A DNA stretch of 64,000 nt from Methanobrevibacter sp. (lineage in GTDB: Archaea; Methanobacteriota; Methanobacteria; Methanobacteriales; Methanobacteriaceae): contig NZ_SUTM01000011.1 of assembly GCF_015062935.1 (NCBI RefSeq), forward strand, positions 1-64,000, given 5' to 3'. Positions 3-10,211 of this stretch are shown piece after piece (position 1 is the first letter of the stretch; each line of letters opens with the position of its first letter). A program made the position numbers and the translations under genes. The notes under the pieces were generated by a model. It was not told where the DNA came from. It ran no database searches and saw nothing but the letters and a program-made list of their open reading frames with translations.

Positions 3-743
3 TTACACCGTATGATAAACAAGGCGGCTTCTGGTGAACCAGTCGCTTATGGTGTTTGGTGTGGTGTTGCTGGTGCTATTGCATACATAGTTATGTCTTT
101 AGGTATGATGCCTTTAGTAGCTATTGCAATGGGTGCTTGTGTCGCTGCTTTTGTTCACGCTATTTATACTGTTACATCCCACATGGGAAGGATTGTTGGA
201 CAATCCCAATTTGAACAACCATTATTTATGGATGTATTGACTCAATCTTTAGGACCTATTGTAGGTCACGGATTTATAACTAGTTTTTGTATTGTCGGAA
301 TTTCTTACTTAATGACCATTCCATTAGGATTTAGTGATCCTTTACACGTATTCCCATTACCACTCTTAGCAATGCTTTGGGGTATTGCTTTAGGTGCTAT
401 CGGTTCTTCAACCGGGGACGTTCACTATGGTGCAGAAAGTGAGTATCAAAAATTCGAATTTGGTGGAGGTACCCCTGTAGCTATTCAAGGGGATATTGTT
501 ACTAAAGCTCCATTAGGTGCTAAAAACTCTATGGATGTAGTAAACTTCTGTGCTAAATTCGGTGGACCATTAACTGGTTTCTGTTTCGGTCTCGTTGTAT
601 TCTTTAGTTTCTGGAATACAGTAGTATTTGGAGTATATGGTGGTATTATTGTAGGTATTATAATAATTATCTTATTAATTATCATGGATAATTATTTAGA
701 AGTATTTGCAAGAAACAAATATGGACCATATGAGGAAGAATAA
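3..743 (+). CDS. mtrE: Tetrahydromethanopterin S-methyltransferase subunit E, 5'-truncated
   Basis: Membrane subunit of the Na+-translocating methyltransferase that moves the methyl group from methyl-H4MPT to coenzyme M. The reading frame is open to the left edge (Leu-His-Arg then Met-Ile-Asn-Lys), so the N-terminal part, roughly 50 residues by family length near 295, lies outside the window and the Met at base 12 is internal. Several hydrophobic segments, the stretch GSSTGDVHYGAE and the ending RNKYGPYEEE are typical of MtrE. It is the first visible gene of mtrEDCBAFGH, with mtrD starting 13 bases after its stop. Confidence 0.95.
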   Translation, partial: LHRMINKAASGEPVAYGVWCGVAGAIAYIVMSLGMMPLVAIAMGACVAAFVHAIYTVTSHMGRIVGQSQFEQPLFMDVLTQSLGPIVGHGFITSFCIVGISYLMTIPLGFSDPLHVFPLPLLAMLWGIALGAIGSSTGDVHYGAESEYQKFEFGGGTPVAIQGDIVTKAPLGAKNSMDVVNFCAKFGGPLTGFCFGLVVFFSFWNTVVFGVYGGIIVGIIIIILLIIMDNYLEVFARNKYGPYEEE

Positions 744-8236: not shown

Positions 8237-9455
8237 TGATGCTGAAAGAGCAAAAGATAAAAAAGCAGCTTTAGGTGCAGATATTACTATTGAAAATTTT
8301 ACTGATGAAACTGTCAATGCTTTGGACATGATTGACGATTTGGATGATTTAAGCAAACAGACCAAAAACGACCTTTTAAAAGTGGGTGTAGATACTGAAG
8401 AAAAAAACAGGTCAGGTTCATTTTTACAGGTTGATCAAAGTAATATTTTCACTAACAATAGCATGTCCGATTCAATTGAAGTAATGAATATGGCCATTGC
8501 ATTGGAAAAATATAGCTGGCTGGAAGACTATCTTTGGAAAGTTGTCAAACCTGATGCTGATAAATACACAGCTAAAACTGCTTTAAACGAACAGGAAAAC
8601 GGAGTTTTAAGTGGGTATTTTGTAAGGTCATTACCTGGAACCAAGGAAGTCATGCCTGTACAGGCATGTATGTTTATCAGTGATGAGGATATTATGCAAA
8701 CTGCACACAATGTAATTATTGCTGAGGAAAACTCAGAATTGCATTTGATTACTGGATGTGCAACTGGTGACGATGTAGGTTCTGCAATGCACGTTGGTGT
8801 ATCTGAAATGTACTTGAAACCAGGTTCAAAAATTACTTTTACAATGGTTCACAACTGGGCGGAACAAGTTGAAGTACGTCCTAGAACTGGTGTTAAATTA
8901 ATGGATGATACTACTTATATCAATAATTACATTTTAACTAGTCCTGTAAGCACTATTCAATCATTCCCTACAGCTTACTGTGATGGTAAAAATTCAAGAG
9001 CTATTTTCCAAAGTATTCAAGGTGGTAAAAAAGATTCCATTATTGATGTTGGATCAAGAGTTCTTCTTAATGCTGAAGGTGCTAGAGGAGAAGTTATCTC
9101 AAGAGCTGTTGCTCAGGATGAATCTAAAATTTATGCAAGAGGTCATTTGGCAGGAACTGTGCCTGATGTTAAAGGTCATTTGGAATGTCATGGTTTAGTT
9201 TTATCCAATGACAGTTTTATTTATGCAGTTCCTGAACTTGAAGCCAGTTCTGCAAATCTCGAAATGTCTCACGAGGCTGCTGTCGGTAAAATTTCCGAAG
9301 AAGAAATCAACTATTTAACTTCTAGGGGAATTGACGAAGAAGATGCAGAATCCATGATTGTTAGAGGATTTTTAAATATGGATATAACAGGTCTTCCGGA
9401 TGAATTGGCTGAGCAAACTCAAAGAATGATTGATATGAGCCTTGATGGAATGTAA
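8205..9455 (+). CDS. sufB: Fe-S cluster assembly protein SufB/SufD family
   Basis: Scaffold partner of SufC, about 416 residues, with the beta-helix core typical of SufB/D (for example VGSRVLLNAEGARGEVISRAVA and GRGHLAGTVPDVKGHLECHGLVLS-like regions around residues 275-340). A single SufB-like gene next to sufC is the usual methanogen arrangement. The start is uncertain: the frame overlaps the sufC end, and ATG 8196, ATG 8205 or GTG 8211/8220 are all possible; none has a good SD. I list 8205; homologues would begin near the YSDAERAKDKKAALG segment. Confidence 0.9.
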   Translation: MDVLSVRNVYSDAERAKDKKAALGADITIENFTDETVNALDMIDDLDDLSKQTKNDLLKVGVDTEEKNRSGSFLQVDQSNIFTNNSMSDSIEVMNMAIALEKYSWLEDYLWKVVKPDADKYTAKTALNEQENGVLSGYFVRSLPGTKEVMPVQACMFISDEDIMQTAHNVIIAEENSELHLITGCATGDDVGSAMHVGVSEMYLKPGSKITFTMVHNWAEQVEVRPRTGVKLMDDTTYINNYILTSPVSTIQSFPTAYCDGKNSRAIFQSIQGGKKDSIIDVGSRVLLNAEGARGEVISRAVAQDESKIYARGHLAGTVPDVKGHLECHGLVLSNDSFIYAVPELEASSANLEMSHEAAVGKISEEEINYLTSRGIDEEDAESMIVRGFLNMDITGLPDELAEQTQRMIDMSLDGM

Positions 9456-9478: not shown

Positions 9479-9603
9479 CTCTTTTTTTTAAAAGTAATAA
9501 TTTGATTTTTTATCGTATTACATCTTGTTTTATAGTATATAAACTTTTTGGCTTTAGTTTCTAAGTAAGCTTTATATTAATTATTAATGAAATATATTAA
9601 TCA

Positions 9604-9639
9604 GTACATAATGTAATGCTGAGCTAGCTCATTACGTAC
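9604..9639. repeat. Interrupted inverted repeat in the mvh leader
   Basis: GTAC and GTAATG at 9604-9607 and 9613-9618 are mirrored by CATTAC and GTAC at 9630-9635 and 9636-9639; between them lies the 10-base palindrome GAGCTAGCTC (9621-9630). It could be an operator or an RNA stem-loop. Confidence 0.6.
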
Positions 9640-9651
9640 ATAAAATTGTGA

Positions 9652-9670
9652 TTTTAAGGCGTGCCTAAAA
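9652..9670. repeat. Second inverted repeat in the mvh leader
   Basis: TTTTAAGGC and GCCTAAAA flank a 2-base centre; the AGGC/GCCT core is perfect and one A is unpaired in the left arm. It lies 13 bases after the first repeat. Confidence 0.5.
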
Positions 9671-9785
9671 CTGTATGTCTTAAAAAAAAGATTTTAAAAT
9701 TTTTTAAAAAACTTTAAAATTTGAATTTGAAAAATTAATATTTTTTAAATTCGCAAAAAAATATTTATAGAGGAGGAGAAACTCT

Positions 9786-10211
9786 ATGGCTGATGATGTA
9801 AAAATTGTAATGTTTTGTTGCAACTGGTGTTCCTATGGAGGAGCAGACACAGCTGGTACTGCAAGGATGCAATACCCACCGAATATTAGAGTTATTCGTG
9901 TAATGTGTTCTGGAAGAATTGATCCACAATTTGTTTTAAAAGCATTTAAAGAAGGTGCAGACGGTGTATTCGTAGCTGGATGTCACATGGGTGACTGCCA
10001 CTATGACGCTGGTAACTACAAATTAGATCGTAGAATGAGATTAATTTATAAATTAGTTGAAGATATGGGAATTGGAAAAGAAAGAGTTCACCACGACTGG
10101 ATTTCCGCATCCGAAGGTGAAAAATTCTCTGAATCTGTTAAAATGATGGTTAACAGAATCAAAGAATTAGGTCCAGCTCCATTGAAAAAACAATTAGATG
10201 CTGAAGGATAA
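9786..10211 (+). CDS. mvhD: F420-non-reducing (MV) hydrogenase subunit D
   Basis: 141-residue iron-sulfur subunit (delta) that links the [NiFe] hydrogenase MvhAG to heterodisulfide reductase HdrABC in flavin-based electron bifurcation. Cysteines cluster at [13 protein letters not shown] (near residues 11-15), VMCSGRID and [10 protein letters not shown], the pattern of the FlpD/MvhD family. A very strong SD (GAGGAGGAG) precedes the ATG. First gene of mvhDGAB; mvhG follows after 16 bases. Confidence 0.95.

Follow-up and report, generated by a model that had tools for sequence, protein, structure and literature searches.

The region upstream of mvhD reads as a composite control leader of mvhDGAB, an interpretation to which we give an even chance. 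Comparison of related sequences suggests that its two inverted repeats probably play two roles, a dyad at the transcription start and a metal-regulator box, within a leader that also folds. In the sequence, a tandem-TATA promoter whose geometry is nearly fixed is joined by a GTAC dyad where transcription is predicted to start and by a palindrome of iron-regulon type, about 50 nt further on; the sense strand shows selection for about five hairpins, the last one holding the start codon. The region thereby provides defined elements at mvh itself that can be mutated, with iron as an unexpected candidate signal. The 64,000-nucleotide stretch of DNA analysed here, hereafter the window, belongs to a 2.5 Mb genome in 44 contigs (G000), which its named relatives indicate to be a Methanobrevibacter. 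Mvh feeds electrons from H2 into the last step of methanogenesis. On the + strand, mvhD (9786-10211) begins with an ATG at 9786 as the first gene of what we take to be mvhDGAB, the names presumably holding from family knowledge and from the relatives found by MvhD search. The gene 5' of the leader, presumably sufD-like, ends at 9455. The long leader announced by an earlier sequence-only reading is present, and a leader peptide was rejected because no sense-strand ORF of at least 20 codons was found in 9597-9785.

The MvhD search gave matches in 67 of 67 genomes of the genus (E <= 0.001), a count that includes paralogues and weak hits in long frames, and 80 named mvhD loci were retained. At E <= 1e-40 MvhD is single copy in G000. 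A second copy, of about 60-70% identity, occurs in many relatives and adjoins, in the five loci read, a gene that we assume to be fdh-like. Leader extraction started from 110 loci. It yielded 92 promoter-to-ATG leaders, 73 distinct and 58 non-redundant at a 94% cut-off (33 from the Methanobrevibacter group, 25 others). The 18 loci lost lie on truncated contigs (L025, L045, L066, L068), have no proximal TATA (L060), are Methanosphaera-type rows outside the regular expression (six; L091, L094, L095, L097-L099) or are mvhD paralogues of lower identity (seven; L103-L108, L110). Three assemblies (G012, G022, G086) contain more than one mvh leader and are perhaps mixed bins, not duplications.

Two TATA-like elements precede the leader on the + strand. 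The distal one, TATATAAA (9536-9543), had been taken for the only good TATA box. This does not hold, as a second element with BRE and TATA, AAGTAAGC TTTATATT (9563-9578, the TATA itself at 9571-9578), is conserved across the order and is likely the working promoter. An upstream TATA-like motif starts 34-35 bp before TTTATA in 71 of 72 promoters, many from close relatives, with L079 as the exception. The distance from TTTATA to GTAC is 31-33 bp; nine of the rows compared give less, an upstream GTAT having been matched first. Since the proximal BRE/TATA is conserved and its spacing to the first repeat is nearly fixed, transcription is expected to start at about 9597-9603, given the archaeal TATA-to-start distance, and the leader would measure about 185 nt. 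Of 150 genomes of the order, 99 contain the pattern AAGTAANNTTTATAN{20,30}GTACN{4,34}GTAC, 94 of them exactly once; its reversed version gives 3 matches in total. The five genomes with more than one match are the three with several mvh leaders, G012, G022 and G086, and two with overlapping matches, G132 and G137. At L060 (around position 1000-1050) the proximal BRE/TATA is missing and the GTAC dyad and leader are present, through natural deletion or assembly error.

The promoter before mcrB in the same genome (G000:C1:172993-173031; L115, L226) carries the same tandem-TATA module, with identical spacing and related sequence, and is also followed by a structured leader (124 nt, z -3.49). Unlike the mvh region, this promoter and leader contain neither GTAC nor an iron-type box within 2 mismatches. 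The module pattern was written from these two G000 promoters, so that their 0 mismatches arise by construction; no third match was found in G000 at up to 3 mismatches. G004 and G008 each have a second, mcr-like match, and further matches with 3 mismatches occur in other genomes; the reversed control gives 7 matches in 12 genomes. No tandem-TATA module was noticed in the frh leader of G000, read by eye. The sequence-only reading had suggested a search for the palindrome of the first repeat before frh, hdr or mcr: as far as the contigs permit, the exact 14-mer TGAGCTAGCTCATT that contains it occurs at mvh only, and what mcr has in common with mvh is the tandem-TATA module.

The interrupted repeat at 9604-9639 (+ strand) is present as first described, with its inner 12-bp palindrome TGAGCTAGCTCA at 9620-9631, inside TGAGCTAGCTCATT. 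At the DNA level it forms a GTAC...GTAC dyad where transcription is predicted to begin. As RNA it corresponds to P1, a predicted 5'-terminal stem-loop (9604-9607 with 9636-9639, 9609-9613 with 9630-9634). Conservation in close relatives, on which the sequence-only reading had staked its proposal, is borne out: TGAGCTAGCTCATT has 55 exact sites, as counted from the sites listed, in 51 of the 67 genus genomes. Fifty-one sites lie beside mvhD on the same contig (matched by eye) and the other 4 at contig ends, so that TGAGCTAGCTCATT is confined to mvh as far as the contigs permit. A covariance model of P1 and P2 (R1), searched with strict filters that can lose weak matches, gave 55 strong matches in 51 of 67 genomes, all at mvh TGAGCTAGCTCATT sites, and one weak match elsewhere.

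Within the genus, 11 of the 12 P1 pairs are invariant, so that the stem carries little information on structure. In other genera the inner sequence differs and pairing is maintained. Among seven relatives of other genera with equal P1 length (alignment A6), 96.1% of cells pair and 6 are double-changed (0 of 500 shuffles as high); without correction for phylogeny, double changes fall in 4 pairs (reached by 13 of 500 shuffles) and further pair types give 22 of 500. Across 56 leaders P1 is more stable as sense RNA in 41 and as antisense in 15 (p 0.02). In the window itself the antisense of P1 is the more stable strand (-11.4 vs -8.2 for sense), and thermophile-type P1 does not fold at 65 C; for these two reasons P1 may be a DNA element. 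We read P1 as a start-site element with GTAC ends recognised by sequence, which would form a terminal stem-loop in mesophiles. The bacterial papA and aprE transcripts, in the part of PMC3997798 available, bear comparable mRNA-stabilising stem-loops at their 5' ends, as P1 would at the predicted first mRNA nucleotides. Unlike these, P1 is archaeal, has a sequence-invariant GTAC clamp and belongs to a longer series of hairpins; its stabilising role is putative.

The dyad takes a compact form in the f2 and f3 genomes, and some lineages repeat it. In the eight f3 genomes, by inference Methanothermobacter-type, it reads GTACAATTATA(A)GTAC, or GTACAGTTATAGTAC in G149; at three f3 loci that were inspected, mvhD follows after about 40 nt. 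A two-site operator of rigid spacing was rejected as the sole reading of P1 because GTAC spacing ranges from 9 to 36 bp, rows counted from an upstream GTAT being set aside. A GTAC-dyad regulon in this genome was also rejected (TTTATA..GTAC..GTAC, 1 match vs 18 for the reversed control). Six of the eight f3 genomes (L186, L187, L193, L209, L210, L211) also contain GTACAATTTTTAGTAC. At the three loci inspected for it, a TATA-like stretch precedes it by about 20 nt, and an ORF that we assume to be SPOUT-methyltransferase-like follows 140 nt further on.

The second repeat, placed by the sequence-only reading at 9652-9670, exists as a DNA palindrome at 9654-9669, and only its extent as RNA needed revision, since pairing there is wider (9652-9664 with 9673-9685). 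The palindrome TTAAGGCGTGCCTAAA (+ strand) matches exactly the operator-like motif TTWAGGNNNNCCTWAA, found before feoA and feoB in relatives. It is the only match to TTWAGGN4CCTWAA in the window within one mismatch; as 0.94 matches are expected at that tolerance, the window count by itself is no evidence. Shuffling the promoter and leader of the window gave the exact box in 0 of 3000 cases. The box is exact in 24 of the 33 Methanobrevibacter-group leaders, at +49..51, and present with at most one mismatch in 27 of these 33 and in 8 of the 25 others. Six Methanovirga-type rows have TTTAGG[TC]TTTCATAAA at +52..58, and L073 and L076 have the box at +63. With at least 2 mismatches, it is absent from six Methanobrevibacter-group leaders (L030, L057, L065, L067, L069, L101); 17 of the 25 other leaders do not have it even at one mismatch. 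In alignment A5 (18 leaders), which was selected for P2 in register and contains none of the six box-less leaders, half-sites TTAAGG and CCT are invariant and the N4 spacer varies. Because CCT lies mostly in the RNA loop, its conservation goes beyond what pairing alone explains.

Across G000, TTWAGGN4CCTWAA is enriched, with 17 sites vs 6 for the reversed pattern. The count exceeds the reversed control in 11 of 12 genomes, barely in G038 (9 vs 8), and G031 shows no enrichment (5 vs 8). A stray R1 match at G023:C11 (E 0.04), with iron-type boxes around a TATA, was the starting point for finding the motif. We opened 38 motif neighbourhoods (L254-L291), some overlapping; mvh and L260 are the only ones from G000. 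FeoB-type genes lie near motif sites in G001, G002, G004 and G008, and FeoA-type genes in G001, G002, G007 and G038, so that 6 of the 12 genomes, all relatives, have such neighbours. Pfam PF04023 and PF02421 were found on three of the Feo proteins (two FeoA, one FeoB). The remaining neighbours are MFS, ABC, SBF, MarR-type and FdhD genes (Pfam on ten proteins); two sites, L279 and L280, fall within predicted ORFs, and around several others 600 bp are free of ORFs. Inverted TTAGG/CCTAA-type half-sites thus recur before iron-transport genes in relatives, as in an iron regulon. Boxes recur in pairs, about 70 bp apart. At L273, L274, L285 and L291, pairs of TTTAGGN4CCTAAA with this separation flank TATATAAA-type promoters, in the manner of an orderly metal regulon in Methanobrevibacter. 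A TTTAGGN4CCTAAA box also precedes, by 270-300 nt, one ORF type in G000 (L260) and G004 (L288), which we take to be argininosuccinate-synthase-like (argG-like).

These data suggest that 9654-9669 is probably a box of an iron-type, DtxR-like regulon. The label rests on the Feo neighbours and on half-sites that resemble the DtxR/IdeR-family iron box consensus, TTAGGTTAGSCTAACCTAA in the accessible part of PMC10317159, with TTAGG and CCTAA in inverted order. The consensus spacing is TTAGG-N9-CCTAA whereas the mvh box has N4 and does not reach the 19-bp IdeR spacing, hence DtxR-like and not an IdeR box. The left half-site is TTAAGG at mvh vs TTTAGG at most of the sites listed. By eye, the box stands about 20 nt after the TATA or brackets the promoter at several feo and transporter genes. 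At mvh, unlike in DtxR/IdeR systems, it is set about 50 nt downstream of the predicted start and overlaps neither promoter nor start, and the regulator is a candidate only. A regulator site downstream of a methanogenesis promoter has a parallel in the Tfx site of fmdECB in Methanothermobacter, as far as the excerpt of PMC3087415 goes; the likeness is one of position, and operon and metal (Mo/W) differ.

In bacteria, DtxR/IdeR boxes mediate metal-dependent repression. By analogy, a metal-responsive protein of the DtxR family would bind 9654-9669 on the DNA and, when loaded with metal and bound downstream of the start, would hinder transcription. Mvh output would then track the metal status that governs feoA and feoB. 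Least secure is whether metal would lower or raise mvh output, because derepression under iron scarcity would be unexpected for an iron-rich enzyme; activation, or another metal, is possible. The company kept by the motif suggests iron. H2 or nickel, proposed earlier as the signal, finds no support in the repeats, motif neighbourhoods and folds analysed.

Published work bears on this choice of signal. In the portion available of a 2011 review, an H2 sensor in Methanothermobacter had not been found, and nickel and H2 effects are given for frh, mtd, hmd, mcr and mrt (PMC3087415). For Methanococcus voltae, the available part of a study connects DtxR with FeoB and describes the proteins of core methanogenesis as largely unchanged between iron sources (PMC8516115), which we take as mild evidence against a large iron effect on hydrogenases, though from another order. 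A Methanobacterium study, as excerpted, describes mvhA transcripts as unchanged when an electrode circuit was switched, metal supply being no variable there (PMC6459506). No description of the mvh leader or its operator came up in the literature search, as far as the sources were accessible. Archaeal DtxR regulons are reportedly the subject of Leyn and Rodionov 2015, which may already contain the motif. If the iron reading is right, hydrogenase supply and iron uptake would come under a common regulator, with a bearing on methane output under iron limitation.

The leader also behaves as a folded RNA. Its folding z is -4.84, with 0 of 200 shuffles as good, and it is the most structured of 15 leader-sized upstream regions in the window (script-called ORFs; mean of the other 14, -0.64, lowest -2.59). 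All 58 leaders have negative z, with means of -4.47 in the 33 of the Methanobrevibacter group and -2.66 in the 25 others. The sense fold is more stable than the antisense in 56 of 58, by 12.2 kcal/mol on average; the 185 nt preceding the leader, taken as control, are biased in the same direction but less strongly (1.8 kcal/mol, 37 vs 19 of 57, p 0.006). Downstream of P1, four hairpins are predicted on the + strand. The 13-bp P2 (9652-9685) overlaps the box. P3 (9689-9722) is A+U-rich and has no covariation support of its own, P4 (9723-9752) covaries, and P5 (9766-9788) would place the Shine-Dalgarno at its loop and the start codon in its stem. The P5 start region has the lowest energy of the 48 script-called ATG-start ORFs of the window.

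Covariation was counted in chosen rows, 18 of the 33 Methanobrevibacter-group leaders for A5 and 21 of the 28 short leaders for A3, and without phylogeny correction, a concern that the strand test and slid controls lessen and do not remove. In P2, 94% of cells are paired and 13 are double-changed (0 of 500 shuffles as high), these being all the double-changed cells of P1 and P2 together; 5 of its 13 pairs show double changes, which 17 of 500 shuffles reach. P4 is 83% paired, with double changes in 9 of 13 pairs (1 of 500) and in 20 cells (0 of 500). On inspection by eye, 31 of the 33 Methanobrevibacter-group leaders have a P2-like hairpin, the exceptions being L067 and L069. When the whole leader was aligned with seven more distant rows P2 and P4 were lost, and the number and sequence of hairpins vary between clades. 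In its selected sense-strand fold with compensatory changes, phylogeny uncorrected, the leader resembles structured cis-regulatory leader RNAs, and by the predicted start it would lie in the transcript.

Both halves of the original alternative, that a regulator binds or that the RNA folds, look right: motif and positional conservation support the first; strand asymmetry, covariation and z the second. It is unlikely that DNA operators account for the region by themselves, with the GTAC dyad (plus TGAGCTAGCTCA in Methanobrevibacter) recognised by a dimeric regulator, the second box recognised by a metal regulator, and folding incidental. The constant TATA-TATA and TATA-GTAC spacings would fit such operators, as would the compact dyads of f2 and f3 and their repetition in some lineages. 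The sense-strand bias of the leaders and P4, which covaries outside the operators, argue against them; so does the dyad's presence with this promoter at one locus in 94 of 99 genomes, in which, for dyads so linked, no regulon is seen.

Conversely, the RNA leader could suffice, its 5'-terminal stem-loop and hairpins stabilising a highly expressed mRNA and gating the start codon, with the iron-like box a by-product of a hairpin. We regard this as possible but doubtful. Strand asymmetry and covariation are what it predicts, the mcr leader of G000 is structured as well, and bacterial mRNAs are stabilised by 5' stem-loops (PMC3997798, in part). It leaves unexplained why the CCT half persists in the P2 loop, why the box matches a feo-associated motif and why, at one mismatch, the box is present in genera with other folds. 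In the composite leader that we favour, the hairpins would shield the mRNA at its 5' end and control how ribosomes reach it, alongside the operator, and metal supply and RNA folding may together adjust hydrogenase output.

It seems very unlikely that the region is a riboswitch or attenuator that binds a ligand and so responds to H2, nickel or some other signal. The leader is long, conserved and structured, and AAGG could pair with 9664-9666 or with the 3' arm; hairpins differing between clades speak against it, as do strong model matches at mvh sites only under strict filters (plus the one weak match), and the lack of any Rfam class at gathering. Rfam gave three matches at E 1.4-3.4, taken as chance, and a known RNA family was rejected on this ground. 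Processing of the leader to give a small RNA that acts in trans we hold to be barely credible: the self-complementary TGAGCTAGCTCA could pair between molecules and most genomes have one exact site, but TGAGCTAGCTCATT lies upstream of mvhD wherever the contig allowed checking, and no separate promoter or terminator was seen.

If the composite reading holds, the leader would be an archaeal case of selection on an operator and an RNA fold in one short leader. It may go further and be a dual-coded switch, in which 9652-9669 would act twice, in DNA as the operator of a metal regulator and in RNA as the loop and 5' arm of P2, coupling binding to co-transcriptional folding. Placed on an order-wide tandem-TATA/GTAC mvh module, whose TATA part is common to mcr, it would let iron status set the main electron-bifurcating hydrogenase. 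We consider this extension improbable.

In ruminantium/olleyae-type relatives (L058, L059, L063, L065, L067, L070), the mvh leader reaches 410-481 nt, with about ten hairpins. UUGAUUUG occurs 2-4 times in these leaders, mostly in hairpin loops on differing stems, possibly as repeated protein-binding hairpins.
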